Below, piece after piece: positions 3,375 to 45,674 of a stretch of 52,619 nt of DNA (positions are counted from its first letter, which is position 1; every line of letters begins with the position of its first letter). The stretch is taken from NCBI GenBank assembly GCA_902798105.1, contig CADBVG010000001.1:1-52619 (forward strand). Reading direction: 5' to 3'. The position numbers were made by a program, and so were the translations under genes. The notes under the pieces are model-generated. The model was not told the origin of the DNA, did no database searches, and saw only the letters and a list, made by a program, of their open reading frames with translations. The stretch is from an uncultured Eubacteriales bacterium (GTDB lineage Bacteria; Bacillota; Clostridia; Christensenellales; Aristaeellaceae).

Positions 3375-3502
3375 GTTACATTCCTCCCTTGTCATCTGTT
3401 TAGTATATTACCACAAAATGCCGTTTGAGGCAAGCAGTGATTTGTTATTGCATTTTTCCGTTGTTGGCGTATAATGTTAAAAAACACCCAGGAGGATTGG
3501 AT

Positions 3503-3910
3503 ATGCCCGTATTTGAAAGCATTGACCATGCCCGCGCCTATTTTGATGGCGACCGCTTCGCGCTGGAGAACGGCATAACCCTCGATGAAATCGCCCCGGG
3601 CCGCGCCGTTTGCAGTCTGAACATCGAAGCCCGGCACCGCAATGCCGAGGGCGGCGTGATGGGCGGGGCCATATTCACCCTGGTCGACCTGGCCTTCGCC
3701 GCCGCTGCCAACGACATCCACCGCCCCACCGTGGCCCAGCAGGTCAGCATGAACTTCCTCAGCGGCAGCCGGGGAAGCGCGCTGACCGCCCGGGCGACCT
3801 GCCGCAAGGACGGGCGCAGCAGCTGCGTTTACAACGTGGATGTCAGCGACGACCTGGGGCGCGACATCGCCCAGGCCACCGTCACAGGGTTCAAGCTGGG
3901 TATTAAATGA
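3503..3910 (+). CDS. PaaI-family hotdog thioesterase
   Basis: Probable acyl-CoA thioesterase of the hotdog fold. In the 135-residue product the NAEGGVMGGAIFTLVDLAFAAAAN segment corresponds to the conserved HGG-type region and central helix of the family, with Asn-Ala-Glu-Gly-Gly in place of the usual His-Gly-Gly. The start at 3503 follows AGGAGG at 3490-3495; an upstream in-frame extension is not protein-like. Its last 8 bp overlap the convergent peptide deformylase gene. The substrate is unknown. Confidence 0.85.
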   Translation: MPVFESIDHARAYFDGDRFALENGITLDEIAPGRAVCSLNIEARHRNAEGGVMGGAIFTLVDLAFAAAANDIHRPTVAQQVSMNFLSGSRGSALTARATCRKDGRSSCVYNVDVSDDLGRDIAQATVTGFKLGIK

Positions 3911-4313
3911 TCACGCCCTCCAGGTGGTCCACCTCGTGCTGTATGACCTGGGCGATCCAACCCGAAAAGCGCTGCCGCCTCGGCTTCCAGCCGTCGTCCA
4001 GCCAGGCGACCTCGATGTTCTGGTAGCGCTTCGCCCTGCGCTTGCCGTCCAGGGACAAGCAGCCCTCCTCGGCCTCGTAGGGCCCGTCCCGCCTGACGAT
4101 CTGCGGGTTGTACATCACCATATCCATGGGGCCCATGCTGACGATGATAACGCGCTTTCGCACGCCGATCATGTTGGCCGCCATGCCTACGCAGCGCTCC
4201 CGGTTTGCGGCCAGCGTGTCCCGCAGGTCCCGCCCCACGGCGCCATCCGACGGCACCGCGGCGTCGGATTTTTGACCAAGGAACAGCACATCCCTGATGA
4301 TCGGGCGAATCAT
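3903..4313 (-). CDS. def: Peptide deformylase, short Clostridia-type variant
   Basis: Removes the formyl group from nascent peptides. The 136-residue protein shows the three deformylase motifs: GMAANMIG (about residue 43), EEGCLSL (about residue 82) and QHEVDHLEG near the C-terminus with the HExxH-type metal site. In classical enzymes motif 1 reads GLAAPQIG; here Pro-Gln is Asn-Met, so the catalytic glutamine is absent. I recall this GMAANMIG form in other Clostridia, so it is a subfamily feature rather than damage. A GAGGGGAG site precedes the start. Confidence 0.88.
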   Translation of the reverse strand: MIRPIIRDVLFLGQKSDAAVPSDGAVGRDLRDTLAANRERCVGMAANMIGVRKRVIIVSMGPMDMVMYNPQIVRRDGPYEAEEGCLSLDGKRRAKRYQNIEVAWLDDGWKPRRQRFSGWIAQVIQHEVDHLEGVII

Positions 4314-5108: not shown

Positions 5109-5185
5109 CGAGGTGTAGCGCAGTTTGGTAGCGCGTTTGGTTCGGGACCAAAAGGTCGCAGGTTCAAATCCTGTCACCTCGACCA
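5109..5185 (+). tRNA. tRNA-Pro (anticodon CGG), prophage integration target
   Basis: Cloverleaf with acceptor CGAGGTG/CACCTCG, an anticodon arm around TTCGGGA (anticodon CGG, reading CCG), T-arm GGTTCAAATCC and encoded CCA at 5183-5185. Its 3' part from 5141 is repeated exactly at the far end of the prophage, so integration restored a functional tRNA. It is cotranscribed with tRNA-Thr. Confidence 0.95.
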
Positions 5186-5190
5186 CAAAA
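5141..5190 (+). repeat. attL: 50-bp core repeat in tRNA-Pro
   Basis: Identical over 50 bp to 45625-45674. It starts in the anticodon loop, ends just after CCA, and lies next to the integrase gene, as expected for tyrosine-recombinase integration into a tRNA 3' end. Confidence 0.93.
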
Positions 5191-9382: not shown

Positions 9383-12178
9383 ATGGATATAAGAGAGTTT
9401 GTCAGCTACCTGCATGTGGCCAAGGGGCCGGACGGAAACGGGGAATACCTGTGCCGCTGTCCGGCCCACGATGACCGCCAGGCTTCGCTGTGCGTGGGCA
9501 CCGGCGAGGGCGGGCGCATCCTGGTGAAGTGCCAAGCAGGATGTGACACGCGGGACGTGGTGAAGGCCATGGGGCTGAAGATGTCGGACCTTTACGCGGA
9601 CGGCAAGCCGGCGGGCAAGCCCAGCAGACCGGCAGCGGCAAAGCCCGCGCCGGGGCCGGAGCCTCCGCCAGCCAAGGGCGCGGCCAAGCAGAAGCCCCTG
9701 GGCAAGCTGGTGAAGGCATACCCCTACACCGACGAACAGGGCCAGGTGCTTTTTGAGGTCTGCCGCTTCGAGGCGGAGGAAAACGGCCACCGCGTGAAGA
9801 CGTTCAGGCAACGCCATAAGGACCCCGGCAACCCGGCAGCCAAGCAAGGCGGCTATGTGTGGAACATCAACGGGGTGCGCAGCGTGATCTACCGGCTGCC
9901 GGAGGTGCTGGCCGCCATCCAGGCCGGAAAGACGATCTACCTGGTGGAGGGCGAAAAGGACGCCGACACCCTGGCCGCCGCCGGCTTCGCCGCCACGACC
10001 AACCCCGGGGGAGCCTCCAAGAGCGGGGCGAGTAAATGGCTGCCGGAACACACCCGGCTGCTGACCGGGGCGCATGTGGTGATCCTGCCCGACAATGACG
10101 CGGCGGGCATCAATGACCGCAAGCAGGTGGCCACGCAGCTGGGCGCGGTGTGCAAGAGCGTGAAGCTGCTGGACCTGCGGAAAGCCTGCCCCACCCTGCC
10201 GACCAAAGGCGACATCACCGATATGCTGGAGATCATGGGCAAGGTGGAGGGCCTGAAGGCGCTGCGAACCCTGGAGAGCGCCACCGAACCCATGGACCTG
10301 TCCGAGGCCCAGGCCACCGCTGCCCGCGATGCCGCCGCCGCGCTGATCGGCAACGTGCCCGGCTATTGCGTGGACCATGGCTGCATCTGCACCTGGAACG
10401 ACGACACGCCGAAACGACTGTGCAACTTCACGGCCATTGCCAACGGCGTGATCACCCGAGACGACGGCGTGACAGAGGAAACCTACATCCTGGTGGATGG
10501 CTGGACCGCCAACGGGGAGCGCCTGAAGCCGGTGCGGGTGCCCGGCAAAGCCTACAAGCGCATGGACTGGATCACGGAAAACTGGGACATCCGCGCCAGC
10601 ATACTGCCCGGAAACACGGCCACCGACAAGGTGCGCTATGTGATCCAAACCGCCAACGCCGAAAACGCCCAGCGCATCCGGGAATATACACACACCGGCT
10701 GGCGCAAGATCGGCGGGCGCTGGTGCTACCTGTACCAGGGCGGGGCAATCGGGGCGGAGGGCGTGACGGTGGACCTGGCCCAGGCGCTGGACAGCTACTG
10801 CCTGGACGCCCGCTACGATCCCGAGGGCCGGAACGAAATGGACGACATGGTGGACGTGTGCAGCCTGACCATCAACATCACGCGCCGGATCAGCGTGCCG
10901 CTGGTGGCCTTCATGTTCCTGGCCCCGCTGCGGGACGCGCTGGTGCGGGCAAACTTCCCGCCATCGTTCAGCGTGTACCTGATCGGCGGGTCGGGTGCCC
11001 ACAAAAGCACCATTGCCGCGCTGATGCTGTCCTTCTTTGGGTGCTTCCGGGAATTGAGCCTGCCTGCATCGTTCCGGGACACGGCCAACTACATCACCCA
11101 CAAAGCCTTTGTGCTGAAGGACATGGTGCTGGCCGTGGACGACTACCACCCGGAAAGCAGCCTGCAAGCCCGGCGCAAGATGGAAGACACCGCCCAGCAG
11201 CTGGCCCGCGCCTTTGGTGACCTGGCCCAGCGCGGGCGCATGATGGCCGACCAAAGCCTGTCAACCTCAAAGCCACCCCGGTCCCTGGCGCTGATCAGCG
11301 GCGAGGATATGCCGAACATCCGGGAATCAGGCGAGGCCCGATACTATGTGATACAGATTGGCCCCAACGAGGTGCCCGTGGACGGAGTGATGACTGAGAT
11401 GCAGGATAAAGCAGCGGAGGGCGTCATGGCCCATTGCATGCGCAAGTATATCGAATGGCTGGCCCCACAGATGGACGACCTGCCCGGCAGGCTGGCGACC
11501 CGCTTCAAAGAGCTGCGCAGCGAATTTCAGAAAATGAACATCGGGCACAGCCGCGCCCCCGGCACCATCGCCCACCTGGTGATCGGCTATGAGATGTATC
11601 TGCGCTTCCTGGTGGAAACCGGGGTGATCGACGACCCGGACGGGGATTTCACCAGGCAGGAGCTGGCGGAGGCGGTGCGGGACATCATCGCCAACAGCAA
11701 GGCGCAGAGCCGGGACAGCAAGCAGGAGCGGCCCAGCCGCATGTTCCTGAACACCATCGGGGAAATGCTGCTGACCCGCGAGGCCAGCGTGGTGGACCTG
11801 ACCGACGCCACGGGAAAGAACAGCCCCGGCAAGGGCCACATCGGATATATGGACGCGCTCTTCTACTACCTGATCCCGGACACCAGCTACAGAATGGTGT
11901 GCGAGTTCTTCACCAAGAAGGGCGAAGCCTTCCCGCTGTCCGCCCGGATGCTGCACCGGCAGATGAGTGAAGACGACCTGCTGGTGGGCGGCGGCGACGG
12001 AAAGAACACGCGGGTGAAGCGCATCGACGGAAAGAACGCCAGGCTGCTGTGGATTCCACGGGCGAACATCGACGGCCCCAAGCCAGTGAAGGAACAGATG
12101 CGCATGGACCTGAACCAGGGAGCCGACGAACAGGCGGACGGCTTCAAGGAAGTAAACGACCCGGACAACCCATTTTGA
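9383..12178 (+). CDS. Phage primase/helicase with zinc finger, TOPRIM and DUF927-type ATPase
   Basis: Replication protein of 931 residues. The N-terminus has a CHC2-like zinc site (C24, C26, H29, C50, C54). A TOPRIM domain follows with LVEGEKDADTL (about 187-197) and ILPDNDAAG (about 234-242). The C-terminal half is a DUF927-type ATPase with Walker A GGSGAHKST (about 535-543) and Walker B-like VLAVDDYHPE. It should make primers and unwind the phage origin. It begins the main replication block with the helix-turn-helix gene just upstream and is followed by a hairpin repeat at 12181-12204. Confidence 0.9.
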   Translation: MDIREFVSYLHVAKGPDGNGEYLCRCPAHDDRQASLCVGTGEGGRILVKCQAGCDTRDVVKAMGLKMSDLYADGKPAGKPSRPAAAKPAPGPEPPPAKGAAKQKPLGKLVKAYPYTDEQGQVLFEVCRFEAEENGHRVKTFRQRHKDPGNPAAKQGGYVWNINGVRSVIYRLPEVLAAIQAGKTIYLVEGEKDADTLAAAGFAATTNPGGASKSGASKWLPEHTRLLTGAHVVILPDNDAAGINDRKQVATQLGAVCKSVKLLDLRKACPTLPTKGDITDMLEIMGKVEGLKALRTLESATEPMDLSEAQATAARDAAAALIGNVPGYCVDHGCICTWNDDTPKRLCNFTAIANGVITRDDGVTEETYILVDGWTANGERLKPVRVPGKAYKRMDWITENWDIRASILPGNTATDKVRYVIQTANAENAQRIREYTHTGWRKIGGRWCYLYQGGAIGAEGVTVDLAQALDSYCLDARYDPEGRNEMDDMVDVCSLTINITRRISVPLVAFMFLAPLRDALVRANFPPSFSVYLIGGSGAHKSTIAALMLSFFGCFRELSLPASFRDTANYITHKAFVLKDMVLAVDDYHPESSLQARRKMEDTAQQLARAFGDLAQRGRMMADQSLSTSKPPRSLALISGEDMPNIRESGEARYYVIQIGPNEVPVDGVMTEMQDKAAEGVMAHCMRKYIEWLAPQMDDLPGRLATRFKELRSEFQKMNIGHSRAPGTIAHLVIGYEMYLRFLVETGVIDDPDGDFTRQELAEAVRDIIANSKAQSRDSKQERPSRMFLNTIGEMLLTREASVVDLTDATGKNSPGKGHIGYMDALFYYLIPDTSYRMVCEFFTKKGEAFPLSARMLHRQMSEDDLLVGGGDGKNTRVKRIDGKNARLLWIPRANIDGPKPVKEQMRMDLNQGADEQADGFKEVNDPDNPF

Positions 12179-30488: not shown

Positions 30489-33400
30489 ATGGCAGACAAT
30501 AATGTTTTGACCATGCAGGAACCCGATGAGGAATACAGCCCCATCGCCGTGAAAGACCTGGACAAAGAGCGGGTTAAACTCGGACGCCAGGGCGAGAACG
30601 GCACGCAGACCGTGGTGATCGACGCCAACGATTGGCTGGTGTCCCTCCAGGGCTGCACCTTCATGGTGGTGGCCACCCGGCCCGGCGAGCATGAGCTGTA
30701 TGTGCCGGACATCACCGTCAGCAACGGCATGATCACCTGGCCGATCATGGCCCAGGACACCGCCTGCGCGGGCGCTGGCCGGGCTGAAGTGCGGGCGCTG
30801 AAGGGCGACGCCATCAAGAAATCCAAGCTGTTCCGCACCTGGATCGAGCCGGCGCTGGACGGCGAGGTGGGCGGCACCCCGACCGTGCCCCCGAACTGGG
30901 TCAAGGAAACCAAAGAAAACCTGGAGCGCGCCAACCAGCTGATGGCGGACGCCGTGGCGGCAGCCAACGCGGCGGCGGCGGCAGCTGCCGGCCTTGACGC
31001 CGACGTGGAGGAAGCCAAGGGGCAGGCCCTGGACGCCATCACGGCGGCCCAGGCGGCGGCTGTAGAGGCCGCAGCGGCGGACATGGACGCCAGCAGGGTG
31101 GCAGCCGTGGAAGGCGCAGAGACGGCCATGGAGGCCGCAAAGGACGCGAAGCTGGAAGAGATCGACAACGCGAAGACGAACGCGGAACAGATTGCCGGCT
31201 CTGCCGTGGAGATCGCCCAGGCCGCGACCGTCACGGCGGCGCAGGCGCTGGAAAAGGCATCGAACGCCGAAAACGATTCGGCCACCTTCGCCACCGACAT
31301 CGACCTGCTGAAGGAAGGCATGGTCCGCTACGAAATGGAATCGGGCACCTATTTCGGCGGGGCTTTCCTGGACGAATCCACGAACACACTTTACTTCACC
31401 GACAACAAAGGCCGCGTGCTTTTGGAGATTGAAGACATCGGACGCGGCGGCGGCGGCGGTGGCGGCGGCGGAGACGACAGCGGCAGCGCCAGCAAGATCA
31501 GCATGAGCAACATCAGCGGCTGGCAGTCGAAGACCCTGGCCGAAGACGAAGACGGCAACGTGCCGGCCTGCCCGGTGACCTTCCTGTGGTCCAGCCTGGA
31601 GAACGACCTGCCCACCGGCAACGGCAGCCTGCGCATCAGCGTGAACGACCGTGCGGAGGCCATGCTGGAGGTGCCCCAGGGGGAAAACACCATCGACGTG
31701 GCCCCCTACCTGCGGAGCGGCACCAACATGTTCGACTTCACCGTCTACGACATCTATGGCAAAAACCGCTCCATCCGCTTCACCGTGGACCTGAAGGTGA
31801 TGTATATCACCAGCACCTTCGACAACACGCAGCCCTATAAGAGCGCCTTCCCGTTCCCCTACACGCCCAACGGCAGCGTGCGCAAGGTGGTCCACTTCGA
31901 GATGGACGGCACCGAAATCGGGACGGTGGAAACCTCCACCAACGGCCACCAGCAGAGCTTCACCGTGCCGCAACAGACCCATGGCGCTCATGTGCTGCGG
32001 GTTTGGTTTGTGGCGGAGATCAACGGCCAGACCGTGCGCAGCAACACGCTGTATTATGAGATCATCTGCATCGACCCGCTGAACACCGCGCCGATCATCG
32101 TCTCCAACTTTGGCCGGACCACGGTGCAACAGTATGAGACGCTGAAGATCGACTATAACGTGTATGATCCCATGAACCTGGAGGCCCCGGTCACCATCGA
32201 CGTGGACGGCGTGCGGGTGTCCAGCCTGACGGCCAGCCGCGAAACGCAGAGCTTCACCTACCGGGTGAGCCGCGCCGGCAATCTGACCATCGAGATCAAG
32301 AGCGGCGAAACCACGAAGACCCTTGCCCTGGAGGTCACCGAATCCGAGGTCCACCCCGAGGCCGTGACCGATCAGCTGAGCCTGCACCTGGACGCTGCGG
32401 GGCGCAGCAATTCCGAAAACGACCCGGCGGTGTGGGAATACGGCACCGGGGCCGGCAAGATCGCGGCCACCTTCGAGGGCTTCAACTGGACGCGGGACGG
32501 CTGGCAGCGGGACGGCGACGGCCTGACCTGCCTGGAAGTCATGGGCGGCAGCAAGGTGACGATCCCGGCGCTGGTGTATGGCCAGGACTTCAGGGCCACC
32601 GGCAAAACCATCGAGCTGGAGTTTATGAGCCATGATGTGCTGGACTATGACACGCCCATCATCAGCTGCATGAGCGGCAACCGCGGCTTCGAGGTCTACC
32701 CGGACCACGCGGTCTTCAAGAGCGCCCGCGCAGAAGTCAACTGCCGCTTCACCACCGACCGGCGCACGCGCCTGACCCTGGCCGTGGAGCCGCAGAGCGC
32801 CAACCGGCTGGTATACCTGTACATTGACGGCGTGTATCAGGGCATTTCGCAGTATTCCAGCACCGACAGCTTCCAGCAGGCGGACCCGGTGGGCATCACC
32901 ATTGGCGACAATCCGATGTGTGGCGTGAAGAGCTACAACACCCGCGTGTATAACCGCTATCTGACCGCCGAAGAGGTGCTGGGCAACTACATCGCGGACC
33001 GCCAGGACGCCTTCGAGATGCTGGAGCTGTACCAGCGCAATGACATCTTCGAGAACGGCAAGATCACGATCAGCAAGCTGCCGAAGGACCTGCCCTATGT
33101 GATCCTGACCGGGCCGGAATCGCCCCAGTACAAGGGCGATAAGAAGACCGTGGAAATGGTCTTCGACGAACCCACCAACGCGACGCGCCACCTGACCGCC
33201 CAGGGCGTGCTGGTGAACGTGCAGGGCACGTCTTCCCAGTATTACGCCGTGAAGAACCTGAAGATCACCTTCAAAAACGGCGCGACCGTAAACGGCCACC
33301 TGGTGATCGGCTTTACGATCCGGGACGGCAGCATCATGGTGGACACCTTCACGCTGAAGGCCGACGTGGCCAGCAGCGAATCCGCCAACAACATCGTGCT

Positions 33401-36400
33401 GGCCATCCTGTTCGACACCCTGGCCAAGCAGCTGGGCGTTAAGACCCCGCCGCAGAAGGAAAACGCCAACATCCGCCAGGGCATGGACGGCTTCCCCTGC
33501 GTGGTGTTTTGGGACTACGGCGACGGCCCCGAGTTTGTGGGCAAGTACAACTTCAACAACGACAAGGGCACGCCCGAAACCTTTGGCTTCACTGAAGGCG
33601 ATGAAATTTGGGACGTGCGCAACTTTGACAGCCAGCTGTCCAAGTTCAAAACCAACGTGTTTGATGAGAATTGGACGAACGAATATGAATCCATCTATCC
33701 GGAAGAATACTTCGATTGCTCCAAGCTCCAGGCCATGACGGACTTCATCTACAGCACCTGGCAGGAAAACGCCAGCGGCGACGCGCTGCCGGAGGCCGTG
33801 ACCTATGAGGGCACGGAGTACACCCACGACACCGCCGCCTACCGGCTGGCCAAGTTCAAGGCCGAATACGGCAACTGGTACGACCTGGACAACGCGGCCT
33901 TCTATTACGTGTTCACGCTGGTATTCCTGATGGCGGACAGCCGGCAGAAAAACGAACACCTGGCCTGGTGGCATCAGACGCAGAAATGGTGGGAGCTGAT
34001 CTACGACTGTGACACCGCCCTGGGGACCGACAACCGTGGCGCGTTGACGTTTGAATACTGGATGGAAGACATTGACCAGGTGGGCGGCGGCAACGTGTAC
34101 AACGGCCAGGACAACGTGAAGTGGGTCAACTGGCGGCAGGCGTTTTGGAAGCGGTCTGCTGAAATGTATCAGCGCATGAGGTCAAGCGGACTGTTCAGCG
34201 CCGAATACGTCAAGAGGATCTTCCACGAATGGCAGCAGGCATGGCCCGAGGCCGTTTGGAACGAAGACGGCGACTTCAAGTATGTGGCCCCGGTGCGAAA
34301 GGACGGCACCACCACCTACCTGCCCATGGCCCTGGGCAACAAGAGCGGCCAGCGCGATGAGTTCCTGGACTGGCGCTTCCCGTATTGTGATTCCATGTTC
34401 GACATGGGCGACGCGCTGCTGTCCATCCTGTTCAGGCCGTTCTACACCATCACGGAGGAACAGCGGGCCAGCGGCGACTATGACGTGATCGTGGACCTGC
34501 ACAAAAAGGGCTACGTGACCGTGATGTGGGACGACCACAAGACCGGCGGGCGCATGGTCGGGGACAATCTCAGCTGCCGCTGCGAGAACCCCTACACCTA
34601 TGCCAATGACGCCGTGTGCGCCATCCACAACGCCAAGATGGTCAAGGCCGTGCATGGCATGGAAAACCTTTACGTGCGCTTTTGGGACAGCAGTTACGCG
34701 GAGAACCTGGAGGAAGTGGTGCTGGGCAGCAACAAGGCCGGCTACCGCAACGAAGTGACCCGCGAGGTGTCCGTGGGCGCGAATAAGAAGCTGCTGAAGG
34801 TGGACATGCGCAACTGTGTGAATTTCGGCACCGGCACGCAGAAAACGCTGCCCCTGTCCCAGTGCCCGAACCTGACAACCGTCTACATGGACGGGACCCA
34901 GGTGCAGGGCGTGGACCTGCCCAACGGCGGCATCCTGGAGACGCTGCACCTGCCGGCGACCACCAGCAGCCTGGTGATCCGCAACCAGCCCCGGCTGACC
35001 GACGCCGGCCTGGTGCTGGAGGGGTGGGAAAACATTGATCAGCTGTGGCTGGAGAATATGAGCGGCCTGGACACCAAGGCCATCTTCAACCGGGTGCCCG
35101 CCGCCACGGCCATCCGCATCACCGGCTTCTACTGGGAGGCCACCGACGCGGCGGAGATCGAGGCCATCATGGACCGCCTGGACATCATGCGCGGCATCGA
35201 AATCAACGGCCAGGGCCAGGGCATGGAGGTGGACACCGCACAGATGTCCGGCACGATCCACACCAGCGCCCTGCGCGGCGACGACATTGCCAGCTGGAAG
35301 GAACGCTACCCGACCATCAACGTGGTGGCCGACCACACCAGCAGCACGCTGACCTGCAAGAGCTGGGACGGCAGCACCACCATTAAGACGATCCAGTGCG
35401 CGGACGGCGTGCCGCAGGAAGCGCTGCCGACGGTGCCGACGCGGACCTCCACGGCCCAGTACAGCTACACCGCTGTGGGCTGGAACCGGGAAATGGACGC
35501 CAGCACGGCCCAGAGTGACGCGGGAACCAACGTGCTGGAGGATCGCGTGATCTATGCGGCATACAGCCGCACGGTGCGCAGCTACACCATCACCTGGGCG
35601 AACGACGACAACAGCACCCTGGCCACCGAAACCTACAACTACGGCCAGCGGCCCAGCTACAAGGGCAGCACGCCGGTCAGCGCGGTGGACAGCAGCCGGC
35701 CCTTCACACAGTGGACCCCGACCATTGTGGACGTGACCGGCAACGCGACCTACAAGGCCAGCTACATCCCGATCTACACGGCCACCTTTGTGAAGGCGGC
35801 GGAGGATGGCGGCGGCACGCTGGAAACCAAGAGCTATCAGGACGGTCAGACGGTGACCTACACCGGCGAAACGCCCACCAGCACCCGCGAAGGCGTGAAG
35901 TTCAAAGGCTGGACGCCGGCCCTGGGAGTGATCCACGCGAATACGACCTACACGGCTGTGTTTGAAGCGTCGGGCACGATTTGGATGGACCCGAACATCG
36001 ACGTAACCAACGCCTACGCTGTACAGTGGGATTATTCGCAGAATAAGCCCGGCCTGGCCCGTGGCGGCCTGGCGGCCAGCTTTGCCGACCCGACGCCGGC
36101 CACCGACCTGACCGGCAGCGGCTCTTCGCCGTTTGACAACATCCAGCCCTGGGCGGGCATGAAGCGCTATAACGTGGTGAACGGCTCCCTGGTGCCCGAC
36201 ACCAACGCCAGCTTCGACGAAGCCGCAAACGACACGGTGGTCTACATCCCCGAGTTCTACTACAAGGTGGAGAAGAACACCGACAACACCCGGTGGACCT
36301 GGGCCATCAGCCCGACCGCAAAGACCGGCTACACAAAGCACCCCGGCAGCGGCAGGTATGTGGGCCGCTTCCACACCAGCGGCGACAGCAGCGGCGTGTT

Positions 36401-37058
36401 CAGCAAGGGCGGCGTGAACCCGCTGGCAAGCACCACCCGCGCCAACTTCAGGACGTACAGCGCGGCCAAGGGCAACGGCTGGCATCAGATTGACCTGGCC
36501 ACCTGGAGCGCCATCCAGCTGCTGTATCTGGTGGAGTTCGCCAACTGGCACAGCCAGGACCAGCTGGGCACCGGCCAGAACACCGGCAGCATCAAGGCCA
36601 CCGGCGCGACCACCGGCGCAGCCTACCACACCGTCAAGCGCAGCGGCGTAAGCAACATGTATCGGTGGATCGAAAACCTGTTCAGCAATGTGCTGACATG
36701 GGTGGACGGCTTTGTGGCTAATAACCGGGCGGCGTATGTCAGCACCGACATGGCCAGCTACGGTGAAAGCACCACCGGCATGGAGGAAACGGGAATCACG
36801 CTGCCCAGCAGCGAATACATCACCGGCCTGGGCTACAGTGAGAAATGCCCCTGGGCGTTTATCCCGGACACCGCAAGCGGCGGCAGCGCCAGCACCTACG
36901 TCACTGACCGCGTGTTCTCCTACACCGGCGTGCAGCTGGTGGCCGTTGGCGGCTTCTACAGCTCCAGCGACAACTGTGGCGTGTTCTACTTCAGCGCGGG
37001 TTGGAGCGTCACCGGAACCAACGCCTACCTGGGCTCCCGTCTCCTTTATCAGCCCTGA
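30489..37058 (+). CDS. Giant multidomain receptor-binding tail protein, DGR target
   Basis: 2,189 residues. It starts with a BppU-like baseplate-attachment domain (1 to about 135), then an Ala-rich coiled coil (about 145-265), a nine-glycine linker (about 320), Ig-like strands, a LamG/concanavalin-like domain (about 627-850; LYIDGVYQGIS, IGDNPMCG), a large unassigned middle, a leucine-rich-like section (about 1460-1540), three InlB-type beta repeats (about 1625-1827) and a C-type-lectin-like end (about 1831-2189). The final 47 residues (2140-2186) are encoded by the variable repeat. Start at 30489 follows AAAGGAGCGAAAACA. It should bind host surface ligands. Confidence 0.88.
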   Translation: MADNNVLTMQEPDEEYSPIAVKDLDKERVKLGRQGENGTQTVVIDANDWLVSLQGCTFMVVATRPGEHELYVPDITVSNGMITWPIMAQDTACAGAGRAEVRALKGDAIKKSKLFRTWIEPALDGEVGGTPTVPPNWVKETKENLERANQLMADAVAAANAAAAAAAGLDADVEEAKGQALDAITAAQAAAVEAAAADMDASRVAAVEGAETAMEAAKDAKLEEIDNAKTNAEQIAGSAVEIAQAATVTAAQALEKASNAENDSATFATDIDLLKEGMVRYEMESGTYFGGAFLDESTNTLYFTDNKGRVLLEIEDIGRGGGGGGGGGDDSGSASKISMSNISGWQSKTLAEDEDGNVPACPVTFLWSSLENDLPTGNGSLRISVNDRAEAMLEVPQGENTIDVAPYLRSGTNMFDFTVYDIYGKNRSIRFTVDLKVMYITSTFDNTQPYKSAFPFPYTPNGSVRKVVHFEMDGTEIGTVETSTNGHQQSFTVPQQTHGAHVLRVWFVAEINGQTVRSNTLYYEIICIDPLNTAPIIVSNFGRTTVQQYETLKIDYNVYDPMNLEAPVTIDVDGVRVSSLTASRETQSFTYRVSRAGNLTIEIKSGETTKTLALEVTESEVHPEAVTDQLSLHLDAAGRSNSENDPAVWEYGTGAGKIAATFEGFNWTRDGWQRDGDGLTCLEVMGGSKVTIPALVYGQDFRATGKTIELEFMSHDVLDYDTPIISCMSGNRGFEVYPDHAVFKSARAEVNCRFTTDRRTRLTLAVEPQSANRLVYLYIDGVYQGISQYSSTDSFQQADPVGITIGDNPMCGVKSYNTRVYNRYLTAEEVLGNYIADRQDAFEMLELYQRNDIFENGKITISKLPKDLPYVILTGPESPQYKGDKKTVEMVFDEPTNATRHLTAQGVLVNVQGTSSQYYAVKNLKITFKNGATVNGHLVIGFTIRDGSIMVDTFTLKADVASSESANNIVLAILFDTLAKQLGVKTPPQKENANIRQGMDGFPCVVFWDYGDGPEFVGKYNFNNDKGTPETFGFTEGDEIWDVRNFDSQLSKFKTNVFDENWTNEYESIYPEEYFDCSKLQAMTDFIYSTWQENASGDALPEAVTYEGTEYTHDTAAYRLAKFKAEYGNWYDLDNAAFYYVFTLVFLMADSRQKNEHLAWWHQTQKWWELIYDCDTALGTDNRGALTFEYWMEDIDQVGGGNVYNGQDNVKWVNWRQAFWKRSAEMYQRMRSSGLFSAEYVKRIFHEWQQAWPEAVWNEDGDFKYVAPVRKDGTTTYLPMALGNKSGQRDEFLDWRFPYCDSMFDMGDALLSILFRPFYTITEEQRASGDYDVIVDLHKKGYVTVMWDDHKTGGRMVGDNLSCRCENPYTYANDAVCAIHNAKMVKAVHGMENLYVRFWDSSYAENLEEVVLGSNKAGYRNEVTREVSVGANKKLLKVDMRNCVNFGTGTQKTLPLSQCPNLTTVYMDGTQVQGVDLPNGGILETLHLPATTSSLVIRNQPRLTDAGLVLEGWENIDQLWLENMSGLDTKAIFNRVPAATAIRITGFYWEATDAAEIEAIMDRLDIMRGIEINGQGQGMEVDTAQMSGTIHTSALRGDDIASWKERYPTINVVADHTSSTLTCKSWDGSTTIKTIQCADGVPQEALPTVPTRTSTAQYSYTAVGWNREMDASTAQSDAGTNVLEDRVIYAAYSRTVRSYTITWANDDNSTLATETYNYGQRPSYKGSTPVSAVDSSRPFTQWTPTIVDVTGNATYKASYIPIYTATFVKAAEDGGGTLETKSYQDGQTVTYTGETPTSTREGVKFKGWTPALGVIHANTTYTAVFEASGTIWMDPNIDVTNAYAVQWDYSQNKPGLARGGLAASFADPTPATDLTGSGSSPFDNIQPWAGMKRYNVVNGSLVPDTNASFDEAANDTVVYIPEFYYKVEKNTDNTRWTWAISPTAKTGYTKHPGSGRYVGRFHTSGDSSGVFSKGGVNPLASTTRANFRTYSAAKGNGWHQIDLATWSAIQLLYLVEFANWHSQDQLGTGQNTGSIKATGATTGAAYHTVKRSGVSNMYRWIENLFSNVLTWVDGFVANNRAAYVSTDMASYGESTTGMEETGITLPSSEYITGLGYSEKCPWAFIPDTASGGSASTYVTDRVFSYTGVQLVAVGGFYSSSDNCGVFYFSAGWSVTGTNAYLGSRLLYQP
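36907..37046 (+). repeat. DGR variable repeat (VR)
   Basis: 140 bp at the 3' end of the giant tail gene, aligned without gaps to 37176-37315. It differs at 15 positions, in every case where the TR has A. They fall in 12 codons: TR Asn/Tyr/Glu/His codons become Phe, Tyr, Phe, Ser, Ser, Cys, Ser, Gly, Ser, Gly, Tyr and Leu. The GC-rich invariant end CTGGGCTCCCGT is the expected homing initiation segment. Confidence 0.95.
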
Positions 37059-37064
37059 AGGGGA

Positions 37065-37084
37065 CCGGGGGCCGCAGCCCCCGG
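37065..37084. promoter_or_regulatory. Perfect hairpin downstream of VR (homing-target cruciform candidate)
   Basis: CCGGGGGC-CGCA-GCCCCCGG, an 8-bp perfect stem with a 4-nt loop starting 18 bp after VR and 6 bp after the stop. In the Bordetella phage DGR a stem of this size just past VR is needed for target recognition. No T run follows, so it is less likely to be a terminator. Confidence 0.7.
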
Positions 37085-37139
37085 AAACGTGGCCCGACTA
37101 CAGAAAGGATGATGGCTATGAAGTAGCAGCTTAATAAAA

Positions 37140-37354
37140 GGGATTACCCATGCAGTGGGCCAGGCTATGCGTTTCACCGCGTGAACTCCAACACCGGCGT
37201 GCAGCTGGTGGCCGTTGGCGGCAACTACAACTCCAACGACAACTATGGCGTGTTCTACTTCAACGCGAATTGGAACGTCACCGAAACCAACGCCAACCTG
37301 GGCTCCCGTCACCTTGTTTAATGATCCATGTTTTAGCATTGCATGGGTAATTCC
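37140..37354 (+). ncRNA. DGR template RNA with enclosing 18-bp helix
   Basis: Segments 37140-37157 and 37337-37354 pair over 18 bp without gaps (16 Watson-Crick and 2 G-U pairs; core ATTACCCATGCA with TGCATGGGTAAT). They enclose the whole TR (37176-37315). No protein-like frame covers the region. The helix should present the TR as the loop of a structured RNA used by the reverse transcriptase. The exact RNA ends are unknown; a terminator lies at 37401-37430. Confidence 0.75.
37176..37315 (+). repeat. DGR template repeat (TR)
   Basis: Non-coding 140-bp partner of VR, offset by 269 bp, between target gene and reverse transcriptase in the same orientation. It contains about 34 adenines, 15 of them changed in VR. 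Most are in AAC or AAT codons, which can mutate widely without creating a stop codon. Confidence 0.95.
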
Positions 37355-37400
37355 GCAGCACTCGCTGAAAATTCTACCGACAGGACGGGGTTTAGTAGGA

Positions 37401-37430
37401 CGGGGCCAGGCTTTGAGCCTGGCCCCGTTT
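37401..37430 (+). terminator. Hairpin between TR and reverse transcriptase
   Basis: CGGGGCCAGGCT-TTG-AGCCTGGCCCCG, a 12-bp perfect stem followed by TTTC. It may end the TR RNA or limit reverse transcriptase expression. Confidence 0.75.
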
Positions 37431-37466
37431 CGGACGACCCCGAGGTAAACAAGGAGGCATTAGATC

Positions 37467-38621
37467 ATGCCTAAGAGGGTCGGCCATCTGTATGAAAAGA
37501 TGTGCGACAAAGACCTGATCCGGGAAGCAATCAGAAAAGGAAGCAAGCACAAGAAGAAGCGCTGGGACGTTAAGCTGGTAATGAAGAAGCCGGAAAAGTA
37601 CGTGGAGAAAATCTACGACCTGGTAATTAATGGCCGCTATGTTCCCACGCCTCCAAAGATTAAACGAATACATGACAAAACCTGCGACAAGGAAAGAGAC
37701 ATCACTATTGTGCCGTTCTACCCGGACGGCATCATGCACCAGCTGGTGGTGATGGCCATGCAGGACGTGTTAATGCGGGGCATGTACCGCTGGAGCTGCG
37801 CCAGCATCCCCGGACGGGGCAACGCCTGCGCCAGGAAGTACGTGCGCAGGGCGCTGGACAACGATCCCAGGGGCACGAAATACTGCGCAAAAATGGACAT
37901 CCGGCACTACTATCCCAGCATGGACCTGGACCGGCTGATGGCGGCGCTGCGGCGCAAAATCAAGGATGAGCGCTTCCTGACCGTGGTGGAGGCCATCGTG
38001 CGCTCCAACCCGCTGCCGGGGCTGGCCATCGGCTTCTATCCCGACCAATGGCTGGCCAACTTCAACCTGGAGCCGGTGGACGGCTTCATCCTGAAGCTGG
38101 ACGGCGTGAAGTATTACGTGCGCAACATGGACGACATGGTGCTGATGGGGCCAAACAAGCGCAAGCTGCACAAGGCCGTGCGGGCCATCGACGGGCAGCT
38201 GCGGGCCGTGCTGGGCGTCCACCTGAAGGGCGACTGGCAGGTGTTTCCCGTGGACAGCCGGGGCATCAGCTTTGTGGGCTACCGTTTCCGGCACACCCAC
38301 ACCCGGCTGCGGCACAAAGCCTTCCTGCGCTTCACCCGGCAATGCAGGAAGGTGGGCCGGATCATGGCCGGGGGCGGGCTGCCGTCCTACCACGCAGCGG
38401 CGGGCATCCTGTCCAGGACGGGCAGCCTGAAGCACGCCGACTGTGTGCAGGCGCGGCAGCGCTATTTCGGGCCGCTGGACCGGCACAAGATCAAAAACGT
38501 GGTGAGGGGACGGGTGCGACATGAGCCATTTACAGGTGATCGCCAGGCTGGAGGAAATGCTGCGCATGGCGCTGGACATCGTGAACCAGCAGGCGCAGCT
38601 GCTGGAACAGCACGGCATTGA
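37467..38621 (+). CDS. DGR-type reverse transcriptase
   Basis: Copies TR RNA with adenine-directed errors for insertion into VR. The 384-residue reading shows reverse transcriptase motifs: KMDIRHYYPSMD (141-153), GLAIGFYPDQWLANFNL (185-201) and RNMDDMVLMG (219-228) with catalytic D222 and D223, then FVGYRF. The middle motif matches the DGR IGxxxSQxxAN signature except that Ser is Asp. GGAGG precedes the ATG by 9 bp. The last ~34 residues overlap a helical ORF in another frame and look out-of-frame, so the functional enzyme probably ends near residue 350. Confidence 0.93.
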   Translation: MPKRVGHLYEKMCDKDLIREAIRKGSKHKKKRWDVKLVMKKPEKYVEKIYDLVINGRYVPTPPKIKRIHDKTCDKERDITIVPFYPDGIMHQLVVMAMQDVLMRGMYRWSCASIPGRGNACARKYVRRALDNDPRGTKYCAKMDIRHYYPSMDLDRLMAALRRKIKDERFLTVVEAIVRSNPLPGLAIGFYPDQWLANFNLEPVDGFILKLDGVKYYVRNMDDMVLMGPNKRKLHKAVRAIDGQLRAVLGVHLKGDWQVFPVDSRGISFVGYRFRHTHTRLRHKAFLRFTRQCRKVGRIMAGGGLPSYHAAAGILSRTGSLKHADCVQARQRYFGPLDRHKIKNVVRGRVRHEPFTGDRQAGGNAAHGAGHREPAGAAAGTARH

Positions 38622-38688
38622 GACGGAGAGCGGGCAGCTGGAGAGAGCAGAGGAACAATTCAGGAAAGACGTGGAAGGATGGTGTTAG
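38521..38688 (+). CDS. 55-residue helical protein overlapping the RT 3' end
   Basis: ATG at 38521. The product (MSHLQVIARLEEMLRMALDI then VNQQAQLLEQHGIETE) is amphipathic and helical, ending in Cys before TAG. It overlaps the reverse transcriptase frame by 101 bp and stops 1 bp before the lysin start. Composition and periodicity favour this frame over the reverse transcriptase tail. It is far shorter than the DGR accessory protein Avd; it could be a reduced accessory protein or an unrelated tail/lysis factor. Confidence 0.6.
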   Translation: MSHLQVIARLEEMLRMALDIVNQQAQLLEQHGIETESGQLERAEEQFRKDVEGWC

Positions 38689-40673: not shown

Positions 40674-40699
40674 GTCATTGAATGAAAGGGGGGATTTGC

Positions 40700-43600
40700 G
40701 TGGCGAACAACAGCGAGGGCATCTCCACAAAAGTCGGCGTAAAAGGCGACAAAGAATATAAGGCCGCATTGCAACAGATTTCCAGGCAGCTGACAGTTTT
40801 GAATACCGACATGAAGGCCAGCCAAAGCGCCTTTGGCAGCCAGGCCGAAACCATGGGCGGGATGCAGGACAAGCTGGAAAAGCTGAATGAAATCTATGAG
40901 GTGCAGGCGAAAAAGGTTGAGCTGATCCGGGAACAGCTGGAAAAGGCCAAGCGTGAATACGGCGACAACAGCGCCCAGGCCGATCAGCTTCAGATTGCAC
41001 TGAATAAGGCCACCGCGCAGATGAACGGCACGGCCAACCAAATCGAGAAAACCAAGGGCGGGCTGGACACGCTGGCGGAGGCCCAGCAGGCCGTGGGCGA
41101 CGAAACCGACGCGGCCAACATGACCCTGAAGGAAGCGGAGCAGGTGCTGAAGGACGCCGGCAGCAGCGCGGAGGAAATGGCCGGGGCGACTGAAGACGCC
41201 GGCGACGCTGCCGGGGACGTGGGCGACGCTGCGGACGACGCTGCGGACGGCGTGGGCGGCTTTGGCGAGGCCCTGGCGGACGCTGCGGAGGCTGCCGGGG
41301 GCGTGTTCGCCACGGGCGTGGAGGCCGTGCTGGGAGCCATGGCGGCCATCGGCGGGGCCGCCGCCGCCGCCCTGGGCGAAGCCTTCCAGCTGGCCCAGGA
41401 CGCCGGCAAGTACGCCGACGACCTGATGACGCTTTCCAGCCAAACCGGCGTGGACACCGACAAGCTACAGCAATGGGAATATGCCAGCAACTTCATCGAC
41501 ACCAGCGTGGACACCATCACGGGGAGCCTGACGAAGCTGACGAAGAATATGTCCGACGCCCAGGACGGCAGCGAAAGCGCCCAGGACAAGTTTGTGAAGC
41601 TGGGCGTTTCGTGGAAGGACTTCAACGGCAACCTGCGGGACAATGAAGACGTGTTCATGGACGCCATCGACGCCCTGGGCAAGATCGAAAACCCGGTGGA
41701 GCGGGACGCCCTGGCCATGGAGCTGTTCGGCAAGAGCGCCAAAGAGCTGAACCCGCTGATCGAGGCGGGCAGCCGGGCCTGGCGGGACATGGGCAAGGAA
41801 GCCGAAGCCATGGGCACCGTGTTCAGCAAGGAAAACCTGGACAAGATGGGCGCGTTTGACGATTCCATGCAGAAATTCAAGGCCACCGGGACGGCGCTGA
41901 AAAACAGCATCGGCCTGGTGATGATCCCGGCCTTCCAGCCCCTGGTGGACGCGGCCAGCAGCAGCATGGGCAAGGTAGCGGCGGCGCTGCAAGAGGGTGT
42001 CAGCCCTGAAGAGCTGGAAGAGCTGCTGGACGAATTGATCAACACAGCCATAGACGCCTTCGACGACGTGCTGGACATGGTGGAGGACAAGCTGCCCATG
42101 GTCACCGGCCTGCTGACCCGCGTGATCAATCACATTGCGGAGGCGCTGCCCGAATTGACGCGGGTGCTGCTGCCGGCAGCGGTGCAGCTGCTGGAGAGCG
42201 TGATCAGCGGGATCACCGACAATATAGAGCCGCTGACGACGCTGGCCACGGAGCTGGTGACCAATGTGGCGGGCTTTTTGATCGAGAACATCCCGGAATT
42301 GATCGAGGCGGCGGAGAAGCTGCTGGACGGGCTGATCGACGGCATCATTGACGCGCTGCCCGAGCTGATCCCGGCGGCCATCGAGATGATCGTGAAGCTG
42401 GCGGAGGGGCTGATCCAGGGCATCCCGAAACTGGTGGAAAAGCTGCCCGAGATCGTGACGGCCATCTGGGACGGCCTGAAGGCCACCGACTGGAAGAAGC
42501 TGGGCGGCGAAGTGCTGGACGCCATACTGGGCAGCCTGGGCACCATCGGGAAGGACATCATGGACCTGCTGGGCGTGCCTGCGGACACGCAGGAAACGAT
42601 CATCGGGGCCTGGAACAGCTTTGCCGAGCTGATCAGCGGCGGCGTGCAGGGCATCTTTGGCGGCGTGGTGGACTTCCTGGGCGGGCTGTTCAATCCGCCG
42701 GCAGAGGGCGACCAAACGGCCACCAGTGAGCTATGGAACAGCTTTGCCGACCTGGTGGGCGGCGGCATCCGGGGCATACTGGGCGGCGTGGTGTCCTTCC
42801 TGGGCGGGCTGTTTGACCCGCCTGCGGAGGGCGAACAGACCACCACCAGCCAGGAATGGGGCACCTTTGCCGAGACGGTGAAGGGGGCGCTGGAAACCGG
42901 CCTGAAGGGCGCGGCGGAGCTGTTGAGCGGCGTAATCACCGGCGCGGAATCGGCAATCCGGCAAATCGACTGGGACAAGCTGGGCGAAGTCGTGGGCCAT
43001 GTGGCCAACGGGCTTTTGGACCTGACCGACGAAGCGCTTTCCGGGGCCTTTACAGCGGCACACGCGACCATAGAAGCCATCGAATGGGACAAGCTGGGCG
43101 AGACGGTGGGCCATGTGGCCAACGGGCTTTTGGACCTGACCGACACCGCGCTGTCCGGGGCCTTCACAGCGGCCCATGCGGCCATAGAGGCCCTCGACTG
43201 GGCGGGCATGGGCGAAACCCTGGCAACGGTGCCCAACGGGCTGACAAGCATCACCAAAGAAGCGCTTTCCGGGGCCTTTGAGGCGGGCTACACGGCCATC
43301 AGCGGGCTGGACTGGAAGGGCCTGGGCGACACCATAGCGGACGGCCTTAACCGGGGCTTTGGGCTGCTGGCGGGCGTGGGCGACGTGGCCCTGGGACTGG
43401 GCGAGGCCGCCGTGGGCGCTGGCCAGCAGGGCGTGGGTGCCCTGAAGGACTGGATCAAGAGCTGGCGGCAGGACGAAGAGGTGGAGAACGAGGCCACGCA
43501 GGTGGGCAGCAAGGTGATCACCGACCTGGACAGCGGCGTGAAGGATGAGGTGCCCACACTGGAAACCACGGCCAAGGAAGCCGGGGAGGCGCTGCTGAAC

Positions 43601-44272
43601 GCCATCAAGGGGGTGCTGACCGAGGAAGCCGTGAAGGCCATCGGCACCGACTTCGACAAAAACCTGGGCACCGGCATCGAGGACGGGCAGCCGGACGTGA
43701 TCGTGATCGTGCAGACGCTGGCGGACGAAACCTACAGCGCCATGGAGCAGGAAGTGGCCGCGCTGAATTTCCCGGAAATCGGCAGGCAGATGGACGCCGG
43801 AATCGCCCAGGGCGTGACCAACAATTCATGGCTGATCGAGCAGGCGGCCCGCGACGCGGCCCTGGCGGCCTATTATGCCGCCTGCGCGGCCCTGGAGGTC
43901 CACAGCCCGAGTAAAAAGGGCGACTTTTTGGGCGAAATGTTCGACATGGGCCTGGCCGGCGGCATCATGGACAACGCCGACGAAGTGGAGGATGCCGTGG
44001 GCTATCTGAACGACCTGGCAGCCGCCGACGTGGAAGACGTGAACATGCGGCTGGCCACCAACGGCAACGGCGGCGGCAACGATGGGACGGACTACGATCA
44101 AATGAAGACCGCCTTCATGGAGGCCATCGAGGAAACCGGGGCCGGCCAGCACATCTTCCAAATCGACAAAAAGACCGTGGGCGAGAGCGTGGAGCCGTAC
44201 ACCAGCCGGGCCACCCGGCAGCGGCAACAGCAGAGCGTGAAGGGGCGCACGGCAAGGCTGGTGATGGGATAA
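40700..44272 (+). CDS. Tape measure protein, displaced downstream of lysis
   Basis: 1,190 residues; GTG start after AAAGGGGGG. N-terminal coiled coil (about 10-130), an Ala/Gly/Asp-rich stretch, the conserved SSQTGVDTDKLQQWEYAS segment, then hydrophobic helices and tandem repeats: two copies of WNSFA(E/D)L..GG(V/I).GI.GGVV.FLGGLF.PPAEG and three to four ~39-residue units of WDKLGE.VGHVANGLLDLTD. The C-terminal VHSPSKKGDFLGEMFDMGLAGGI motif is typical. It sets tail length. In most siphophages it follows the chaperone directly; here the distal tail, DGR and lysis genes intervene. Confidence 0.94.
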   Translation: MANNSEGISTKVGVKGDKEYKAALQQISRQLTVLNTDMKASQSAFGSQAETMGGMQDKLEKLNEIYEVQAKKVELIREQLEKAKREYGDNSAQADQLQIALNKATAQMNGTANQIEKTKGGLDTLAEAQQAVGDETDAANMTLKEAEQVLKDAGSSAEEMAGATEDAGDAAGDVGDAADDAADGVGGFGEALADAAEAAGGVFATGVEAVLGAMAAIGGAAAAALGEAFQLAQDAGKYADDLMTLSSQTGVDTDKLQQWEYASNFIDTSVDTITGSLTKLTKNMSDAQDGSESAQDKFVKLGVSWKDFNGNLRDNEDVFMDAIDALGKIENPVERDALAMELFGKSAKELNPLIEAGSRAWRDMGKEAEAMGTVFSKENLDKMGAFDDSMQKFKATGTALKNSIGLVMIPAFQPLVDAASSSMGKVAAALQEGVSPEELEELLDELINTAIDAFDDVLDMVEDKLPMVTGLLTRVINHIAEALPELTRVLLPAAVQLLESVISGITDNIEPLTTLATELVTNVAGFLIENIPELIEAAEKLLDGLIDGIIDALPELIPAAIEMIVKLAEGLIQGIPKLVEKLPEIVTAIWDGLKATDWKKLGGEVLDAILGSLGTIGKDIMDLLGVPADTQETIIGAWNSFAELISGGVQGIFGGVVDFLGGLFNPPAEGDQTATSELWNSFADLVGGGIRGILGGVVSFLGGLFDPPAEGEQTTTSQEWGTFAETVKGALETGLKGAAELLSGVITGAESAIRQIDWDKLGEVVGHVANGLLDLTDEALSGAFTAAHATIEAIEWDKLGETVGHVANGLLDLTDTALSGAFTAAHAAIEALDWAGMGETLATVPNGLTSITKEALSGAFEAGYTAISGLDWKGLGDTIADGLNRGFGLLAGVGDVALGLGEAAVGAGQQGVGALKDWIKSWRQDEEVENEATQVGSKVITDLDSGVKDEVPTLETTAKEAGEALLNAIKGVLTEEAVKAIGTDFDKNLGTGIEDGQPDVIVIVQTLADETYSAMEQEVAALNFPEIGRQMDAGIAQGVTNNSWLIEQAARDAALAAYYAACAALEVHSPSKKGDFLGEMFDMGLAGGIMDNADEVEDAVGYLNDLAAADVEDVNMRLATNGNGGGNDGTDYDQMKTAFMEAIEETGAGQHIFQIDKKTVGESVEPYTSRATRQRQQQSVKGRTARLVMG

Positions 44273-45624: not shown

Positions 45625-45674
45625 TTCGGGACCAAAAGGTCGCAGGTTCAAATCCTGTCACCTCGACCACAAAA
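45625..45674 (+). repeat. attR: 50-bp core repeat
   Basis: Exact copy of 5141-5190, containing the 3' 45 nt of tRNA-Pro without the 5' half. It marks the right prophage boundary. Confidence 0.93.

Follow-up and report, generated by a model that had tools for sequence, protein, structure and literature searches.

How is copying limited to the template of a diversity-generating retroelement (DGR) that has no avd gene between its variable repeat (VR) and its template repeat (TR)? The question is raised by a DGR in a prophage of an uncultured Eubacteriales bacterium, carried on the 52,619-nucleotide (nt) stretch of contig CADBVG010000001.1 that we analysed, hereafter the window. For the Bordetella phage BPP-1, PMC12875486 describes a spacer that recruits the reverse transcriptase (RT) together with Avd, a spacer adenine that primes the complementary DNA (cDNA) and a motif at the 3′ end of the avd message that stops the RT. 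The TR of the window is bracketed by two complementary arms. The best explanation, to which we give a probability of about 0.88, is a DGR without avd between VR and TR in which a long-range helix holds the TR as a loop and, as we propose, bounds and places the template. The parts concerned are:

30489-37058, plus strand: DGR target gene, an open reading frame (ORF) from ATG for a tail protein of 2,189 amino acids (aa)
36907-37046, plus strand: VR, 140 bp, with mismatches to the TR only at TR adenines
37140-37157, plus strand: 5′ arm of the TR-closing helix, pairing with 37337-37354
37176-37315, plus strand: TR, 140 bp, identical in a prophage of the same genus (genome G001)
37337-37354, plus strand: 3′ arm of the TR-closing helix, pairing with 37140-37157
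37356-37456, plus strand: Rfam RT-18 RNA (RF03021), 64.8 bits against a gathering cut-off of 41.3
37467-38621, plus strand: DGR reverse transcriptase, 384 aa, ORF open (PHROG 1423 reverse transcriptase, E = 9.5e-93)

Target, VR, TR and RT thus follow one another on one strand, as an earlier note on this DNA had read them from the sequence, and the ORFs, the mismatch pattern and the PHROG match bear this out. Its interval opened correctly at the target start, 30489, but the end it gave, 38688, belongs to a separate 55-aa ORF, the RT ending at 38621. The 140-bp VR and TR have 15 mismatches, every one at a TR adenine (8 A>G, 7 A>T; the TR has 34 adenines); were the mismatch positions random, the chance of 15/15 would be about 6e-10. 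Because the change at 37042 (A in TR, T in VR) is common to all eight family rows compared, it is more likely a fixed difference between the initiation of mutagenic homology (IMH) and IMH*, with the other 14 as hypermutation candidates. From the end of the VR to the end of the target stop codon is 12 nt; the VR–TR gap is 129 nt, and 151 nt separate the TR from the RT. Eleven TR codons within the VR are AAC or AAT, and a search of the host's own genome found no further copy of either repeat.

Pairs with at least 65% of mismatches at A were found at 37 of 44 loci scanned among relatives of the RT and their kin, and in the other seven the sequence begins no more than 467 nt from the RT. A tandem duplication in the tail gene beside an unrelated RT, to which the commonness of repeats in tail genes lends its sole support, is exceedingly improbable given the adenine-only mismatches, this recurrence of the pair and the adenine-only natural divergence described below. 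At one locus from another genome (L049, 888-1429), two VRs may share a single TR, with mismatches at A in 15/17 and 26/40 cases.

The two arms, which the earlier note did not describe, form an 18-bp helix in the window that stops one base before the RT-18 hairpin. For the window RNA it is predicted in the minimum-free-energy fold and also in the centroid fold (z −3.2). An unanchored test of such helices was noisy on wide search intervals, so an anchored form was devised, and both forms were then applied to further loci. The anchor is a hairpin, NNNN-NYYN-NNNN-AAA, present after the TR in 21 of 24 non-redundant loci (from 40). Using the 20 nt before this hairpin in the 21 anchored loci, we found a mean pairing score of 28.0 for a locus's own arms compared with 18.1 with the 5′ flanks of other loci, and the observed sum was reached in 0 of 20,000 permutations. 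The 5′ arm ends 0–28 nt from the TR in 20 of the 21. Compensatory change is also seen: comparing the locus L010 with the window shows a T-A to C-G change, made on both sides of an otherwise similar arm. Across 28 loci, some of them closely related, every one of helix pairs 7–12 is found in all four forms (AT, TA, CG, GC); in the hairpin, pairs 1–3 covary and pair 4 is always C-G. These loci were selected for the anchor and the 5′ arm was taken by best pairing, which inflates the paired shares, so the permutations and not this table are the test of the helix. The arms pair locus-specifically and covary.

We then collected 258 more IMG/VR loci with four other RTs. A VR/TR pair was present in 210, and 117 remained once redundant loci and those resembling the 24 discovery loci were set aside; these were scored over the same search intervals and in the same way. 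The set was not wholly unseen, as Perkons and cr55_1 had been examined earlier and L391 shares a contig with L133 of the gap comparison below. The own-arm sum was reached in 0/5,000 permutations for 47 Perkons-like loci, 0/5,000 for 34 cr55-like loci and 1/5,000 for seven L049-like loci. For 29 VP585-like loci, which have avd between VR and TR, it was reached in 1,256/5,000, and the helix signal was not replicated. The anchor hairpin occurred in 31/47, 15/34, 5/7 and 2/29 Perkons-, cr55-, L049- and VP585-like loci, against shuffle expectations of 1.0, 0.4, 0.0 and 0.8, and the anchored own-arm permutations gave 0/5000, 0/5000 and 79/5000 for the first three, the VP585-like loci being too few.

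Helix signals were also compared by VR–TR gap. In the unanchored test of 51 non-redundant loci (from 74; one without a defined gap left out), P ≤ 0.1 was reached by 20/34 with a gap below 330 nt and by 2/16 with larger gaps (Mann–Whitney 0.0005), the two being L036 (0.039) and BPP-1 (0.078). The further loci gave 33/72 short and 11/45 long, with 0/5,000 permutations each. Perkons- and cr55-like loci make up 16 of the 45 with long gaps and supply 8 of the 11 signals, so kinship rather than gap length separates the helix loci. Among 16 annotated phages, the anchored helix is clear in cr55_1 (z 3.9) and Perkons (z 7.8) and weak in vir215 and cr52_1 (2.1 each), and Epona has a strong unanchored helix (4.8). 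The remaining ten records had z ≤ 1.2: Arawn, BPP-1, phiARM81mr, BalMu-1, VP585, VHML, ACA2, ANMV-1 and the hankyphages BX-TP1 and jmh72.

Several observations weigh against a template-closing helix, beside the inflated shares in the pair table. The test is indecisive at single loci, as the 20/34 and 33/72 short-gap counts show. No signal was found in L025, L042, ANMV-1 or the hankyphages; cr52_1 and vir215, weak in the anchored form, have none in the unanchored form; and BPP-1, itself a DGR of the avd kind, gives P 0.078 unanchored, though its z among the annotated phages is −0.5. The anchor hairpin is missing in 3/24 discovery loci and in 16/47, 19/34 and 2/7 loci of the further families, and the L049-like set is small, with 79/5000 in its anchored test. 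Against the explanation as a whole, a sigma-70-like promoter was not seen around the TR, in what is a weak test.

One rival reading is that the window holds an ordinary DGR of the BPP-1 type whose TR arms are complementary by chance. It has the same order of parts and the same adenine-specific mutagenesis as BPP-1, single-locus scores overlap the cross-locus range (for example in L010, L025 and L042) and BPP-1 itself has the P of 0.078. We consider this very unlikely, given 0/20,000 permutations followed by 0/5000, 0/5000 and 1/5000 where the avd kind gave 1256/5000 under the same scoring; moreover, no bAvd was found in the prophage at E ≤ 1 and its RT lies on another branch than five avd DGRs. 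Conservation of the helix as a structure is well supported. A search of titles and abstract openings, with most subscription papers and bioRxiv outside its coverage, found no paper describing a TR-closing helix or joining RT-17 or RT-18 to DGRs. Bracketing of the TR by complementary arms looks new, and looks common to many related DGRs while not being seen, as a group, in the avd kind.

What the helix does is a proposal. A transcript covering the TR and the RT-18 spacer would be bound by the RT, and cDNA would be primed in the spacer, by analogy with BPP-1. The TR would be copied with errors opposite adenines, and the cDNA would replace the VR, guided by the common 3′ end (IMH) and by a hairpin with a CGCA loop past the stop codon. 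By joining sequence just 5′ of the TR with sequence just 5′ of the RT-18 hairpin, the helix would make the TR a loop; with no avd there, it may stop the RT at the 5′ end of the TR and may put the 3′ end of the TR beside the priming region. The outcome would be a changed lectin-like tip of the tail protein, which probably binds the receptor. Alternatively, the helix could be real but act in the stability or processing of the RNA, or in controlling translation of the RT. The RT-18 match reaches an AAGGAG just ahead of the RT start and a strong stem forms when the spacer is folded, so that RT expression could be tuned there. We regard this as a serious contender, if the less probable one: the arms bracket the TR, with the 5′ arm at most 28 nt away in nearly all anchored loci, and an element for stability or translation need not do so.

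The spacer on which a template-closing helix would abut is itself recognizable. Its RT-18 match is full-length, opens with the hairpin CAGC-ACUC-GCUG (37356-37367), contains UUAGUA (37392-37397) and extends as far as the AAGGAG; the Rfam model starts at the hairpin, with TR and closing helix outside it. RT-18 or RT-17 (RF03020) exceeded the cut-off in 23 of 37 loci scanned (12/13, 9/12 and 2/12), several of them near-copies, and lies directly upstream of the RT in 22, the other being the copy in G001, which has no RT. Of 41 loci retrieved by the window RT, the scan took in 35 (all but L003, L029, L035, L037, L039 and L041), and L044 and L046 were added. With the host's own genome counted in both, RT-18 was found in 3/60 genomes of relatives and 4/398 of the phylum; five other genomes with RT-18 (one below the cut-off) each have an adjoining VR/TR pair with 77–100% of mismatches at A. 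RT-17 had one match, below the cut-off, across the 398 genomes, and an exact DNA pattern for RT-18 found nothing in viral contigs.

A structured spacer RNA of a DGR was already known for BPP-1. In other DGRs, RT-3 (two hankyphages), RT-4 (FP_Epona) and RT-14 (BalMu-1) fall between TR and RT, and spacers match RT-18 (Lactobacillus phage LBR48) and RF03022 Phage_DGR (BPP-1), with no Rfam match in the other 11 of 17 DGR sources. The idea that assigning RT-18 to a DGR is wholly new was weakened by these cases, Rfam itself calling the BPP-1 spacer Phage_DGR. Most simply, RT-17 and RT-18 are the DGR spacer RNAs of the window's branch. A candidate for the priming region is UUAGUA, which 19 of 28 loci have 35–44 nt from where the hairpin begins; seven more have the related UAGUAGG or GGUAG, and two have none of these.

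The hairpin that may guide replacement of the VR was sought in the 70 nt after the VR, as a 4-nt loop on a stem of 6 bp or longer:

37065-37084, plus strand: target-site hairpin, 8-bp GC stem, loop CGCA, 18 nt past the VR; stem changes are paired in relatives and CGCA is kept

The stems around the CGCA loop are CCGGGGGC/GCCCCCGG in the window, TCCGGGGGT/ACCCCCGGA in L005 and L013, CTGGGGGC/GCCCCCAG in L010 and L012, TTGGGGGT/ACCCCCAA in L015 and GGGGGC/GCCCCC in L004. The same scan found no hairpin in L014, and other hairpins or none of that form in more distant loci. PMC3240598 gives stems of 7–10 bp, a GRNA loop and a distance of 4–34 bp from the VR for DGR target hairpins; stem and distance in the window fit these values, whereas the CGCA loop differs from GRNA in its first base.

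The active site of the RT is a second departure, also absent from the earlier note:

38124-38135, plus strand: RT catalytic box NMDD, with motif 4 being IGFYPDQ

YxDD and [ILV]GxxxSQ are typical signatures of DGR RTs, if not strictly defining ones. The window RT has neither, carrying NMDD in place of YxDD and IGFYPDQ in place of IGxxxSQ. Nine close relatives inspected (L004, L005, L010–L014, L079 and L133) have RNMDD with IGxxxNQ, L015 has YMDD with IGFFICQ, and LBR48 has NIDD with SSQ. Among 210 further RTs, Tyr occupies the box in 65/67 Perkons-like, 65/65 cr55-like, 61/66 VP585-like and 3/12 L049-like sequences (ten rows were without the motif), and Asn only in L391, on the L133 contig, and L392, both of which also have NQ. 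A>C accounts for 9/161 changes at 11 loci of the window's branch (near-copies L004 and L006 both in) and for 312/1,870 in Perkons, cr55 and VP585 loci (seven L049-like loci, 8/95, left out), a rarity that is a lead only, as the changes are not independent and selection is uncontrolled.

In a quick tree of 40 RTs, five avd DGRs group together with support 94, and ANMV-1 stands next to them (98). The helix-bearing DGRs make up most of the remainder without forming one clade, and the window RT lies outside the avd branch; the tree has no non-DGR outgroup, cr52_1 is a partial row, L043 and BPP-1 have long branches, and the helix and AVD labels were set by hand. The earlier note had made its reading depend on RT motifs that align with DGR RTs, and the PHROG 1423 match and the placement among DGR RTs uphold that likeness, with both signatures atypical.

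Searching the interval between VR and TR with two Avd queries (phmmer), we found an Avd-like ORF in 0/47 Perkons-like, 0/34 cr55-like, 0/7 L049-like and 25/29 VP585-like loci; in a hankyphage, an Avd-like protein is annotated downstream of the RT. The two bAvd matches at E ≤ 1 in the host's own genome are both on contigs other than that of the prophage. One, on contig C40 (L071, G000:C40:1-12000), lies between a VR (3350-3451) and a TR (4060-4161) as an Avd ORF at 3555-3977, the repeats having 12 mismatches, 11 at A. The C40 VR falls within an ORF whose start looks, by eye, like a capsid protein, and tblastn with the window RT found no RT beside this DGR in the 12 of 24 kb read. Supply of Avd in trans from C40 was considered and rejected; we regard C40 as a decayed second DGR and not a partner.

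The lineage has worked in nature. The G001 prophage (L072) has no differences from the window in the 140-nt TR and 17 in the 140-nt VR, 17/17 at TR adenines, which supplies the related prophage with a different VR whose absence the earlier note had said would count against its reading. L004 and L006, from roe-deer gut metagenome-assembled genomes (MAGs) and with an RT 78% identical to the window RT, are 99.9% identical over 19.8 kb; of their 19 differences, 16 lie inside the 139-nt VR, 16/16 at TR adenines, a clustering with a chance of about 3e-32. G019 is identical to L006 over 3.1 kb and was not counted as independent. This adenine-only divergence shows past natural activity of the window lineage, and that its altered-signature RT is, or lately was, functional.

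A dead DGR with old VR differences is an unlikely reading of the same data. RT loss does occur in the genus: G001 (L072, around 10,545-10,620) keeps TR, VR, closing helix and RT-18 but has no counterpart of window 37465-38600, with no Ns there and no RT found by a genome search, so its VR is presumably frozen; and the host's second DGR looks decayed, with no RT detected beside it. The window RT, by comparison, is open, its TR equals that of G001 while the VR differs only at A, and L004 and L006 differ almost only in the VR. Judged from these sequences, the device is a real DGR lineage with natural activity.

The protein that this DGR would rewrite has two regions of note:

33141-34977, plus strand: CotH-like region, then a weak LRR-like part (Pfam CotH, below the gathering cut-off in the window piece)
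35979-37055, plus strand: C-terminal C-type-lectin-like variable domain, residues 1831-2189 (AlphaFold, Foldseek; PHROG 5302 tail protein, 1.7e-51)

The AlphaFold model of the last 359 residues (pLDDT 90.9, pTM 0.93, 16-row alignment) gave as its best Foldseek match in the PDB the variable protein TaqVP (5vf4, 3.9e-10). Three matches reach E ≤ 0.001, each of them a chain of this Thermus aquaticus protein; Mtd variants take ranks 4–8 (E 0.006–0.06), and a sequence profile of the domain also matches 5vf4 (1.1e-9). The VR domain is thus predicted to fold like known DGR variable proteins, in keeping with the earlier note's placement of the VR in the lectin-like end of a giant tail protein.

That note had also called the architecture unusual and listed BppU-like, LamG, LRR-like and InlB-like parts. 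Upstream of the lectin part we found matches to the Listeria-Bacteroides repeat (E 1.7e-4), Laminin_G_3 (0.011) and LRR_4 (0.089), all below Pfam cut-offs, and BppU_N only in the relative L005 (2.3e-8); the CotH-like middle had gone unnamed. CotH (PF08757) scores E 0.00019 in the window piece, 21.5 bits against a cut-off of 23.8, and reaches E ≤ 0.01 in 13 of 14 alignment members, window included (best 6.3e-11). An AlphaFold model of this part was set aside (pLDDT 43.6 from a 4-row alignment), and among PDB sequences nothing credible was matched by a 14-row profile (best E 0.19). In IMG/VR, 193 stretches among 326 pattern matches encode a relative of the region. Of the best 80 of these 193 loci, some near-copies, 17 have an adenine-biased VR/TR pair (four of them mutual near-copies), which is no frequency because many of the loci are truncated; at seven of the 17 an RT is detectable with the window RT, in three only distantly, and two of the close ones are the L012 and L013 contigs. 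PMC8008677 mentions phage CotH fused to a hypervariable C-type lectin as unstudied, and PMC4159848 lists CotH among DGR target domains. The window protein resembles these in its CotH-like part and lectin-like end; what is described here is one 2,189-aa member with its prophage and RNA parts, CotH catalysis being putative. With such targets in print and the region common, an unusual architecture was dropped as the main point: it is neither new nor rare.

The prophage around the DGR appears complete:

5141-5190: attL core, 50 bp, covering the 3′ half of tRNA-Pro (5109-5185, by ARAGORN), a perfect direct repeat with 45625-45674
45625-45674: attR core, 50 bp, a perfect direct repeat with 5141-5190
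38521-38688, plus strand: 55-aa ORF overlapping the RT 3′ end, without a family match, with similar ORFs in close relatives (L004, L010)

Integrated in tRNA-Pro, it spans 40,484 bp (about 40.5 kb) counted between repeat starts and, by the window annotation, encodes an integrase, repressor-type regulators, primase, terminase, portal, capsid, Dit, tail endopeptidase, tape measure, endolysin, holin and lysis genes beside the target and RT. Integrase, att sites at a tRNA and structural modules are all present, and together with the adenine-only mismatches and VR divergence they confirm a DGR in a prophage. The 55-aa ORF is a possible small accessory. The tape measure gene (40682-44272) sits after the endolysin and holin genes, not before Dit, an order apparently kept in L004. 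One MAG contig, JAFURY010000094.1, contains the same phage stretch twice (L003 and L004), 41,085 bp apart, as would be expected if a phage genome of roughly this length were circular or concatemeric.

Set beside known systems, the window shows adenine-confined TR/VR substitutions, a DGR-group RT beside the TR, a VR at a lectin-fold end and a hairpin after the VR. It shares with BPP-1 the order target–VR–TR–RT, adenine-biased mutagenesis, the lectin-fold target end, the hairpin and a structured spacer. BPP-1 differs in having avd between VR and TR (Pfam bAvd 7.3e-36), where the 129-nt gap of the window has none, in lacking a clear closing helix, in a YMDD box and in a spacer that Rfam assigns to Phage_DGR rather than RT-18; the GRNA loop of published DGR hairpins (PMC3240598) is a further difference. 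LBR48 offers the best RT match among annotated phages (37%) and shares the RT-18 spacer and an N-x-DD box, but keeps IGxxxSQ, and no VR/TR pair was found in its record, which starts 0.8 kb before the RT. In its parts, the DGR of the window belongs to a known kind; its RNA plan and the active site of its RT make it a variant.

There may be two RNA designs among DGRs, a wider proposal for which we see the odds as even. In one, the avd message 5′ of the TR would bound the copy; in the other, to which the window belongs and which is met in loci of Clostridia, Bacteroidales and crAss-like phages, the TR would be looped beside a hairpin of the RT-17/RT-18 type by a covarying helix that bounds and places the template without Avd at the site. 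In one branch of the latter, the RT would have passed from YxDD to NxDD and from GxxxSQ to GxxxN/DQ while remaining adenine-mutagenic, with few A>C changes. How copying is limited to the TR is known from BPP-1, as PMC12875486 reports, and the helix is a testable answer for a large group without avd at that place. It hints at the job of Rfam RT-17 and RT-18 and offers a rule for finding TRs from RNA structure, and with the NMDD lineage nature provides a case in which to ask how adenine mutagenesis depends on the active site of the RT.

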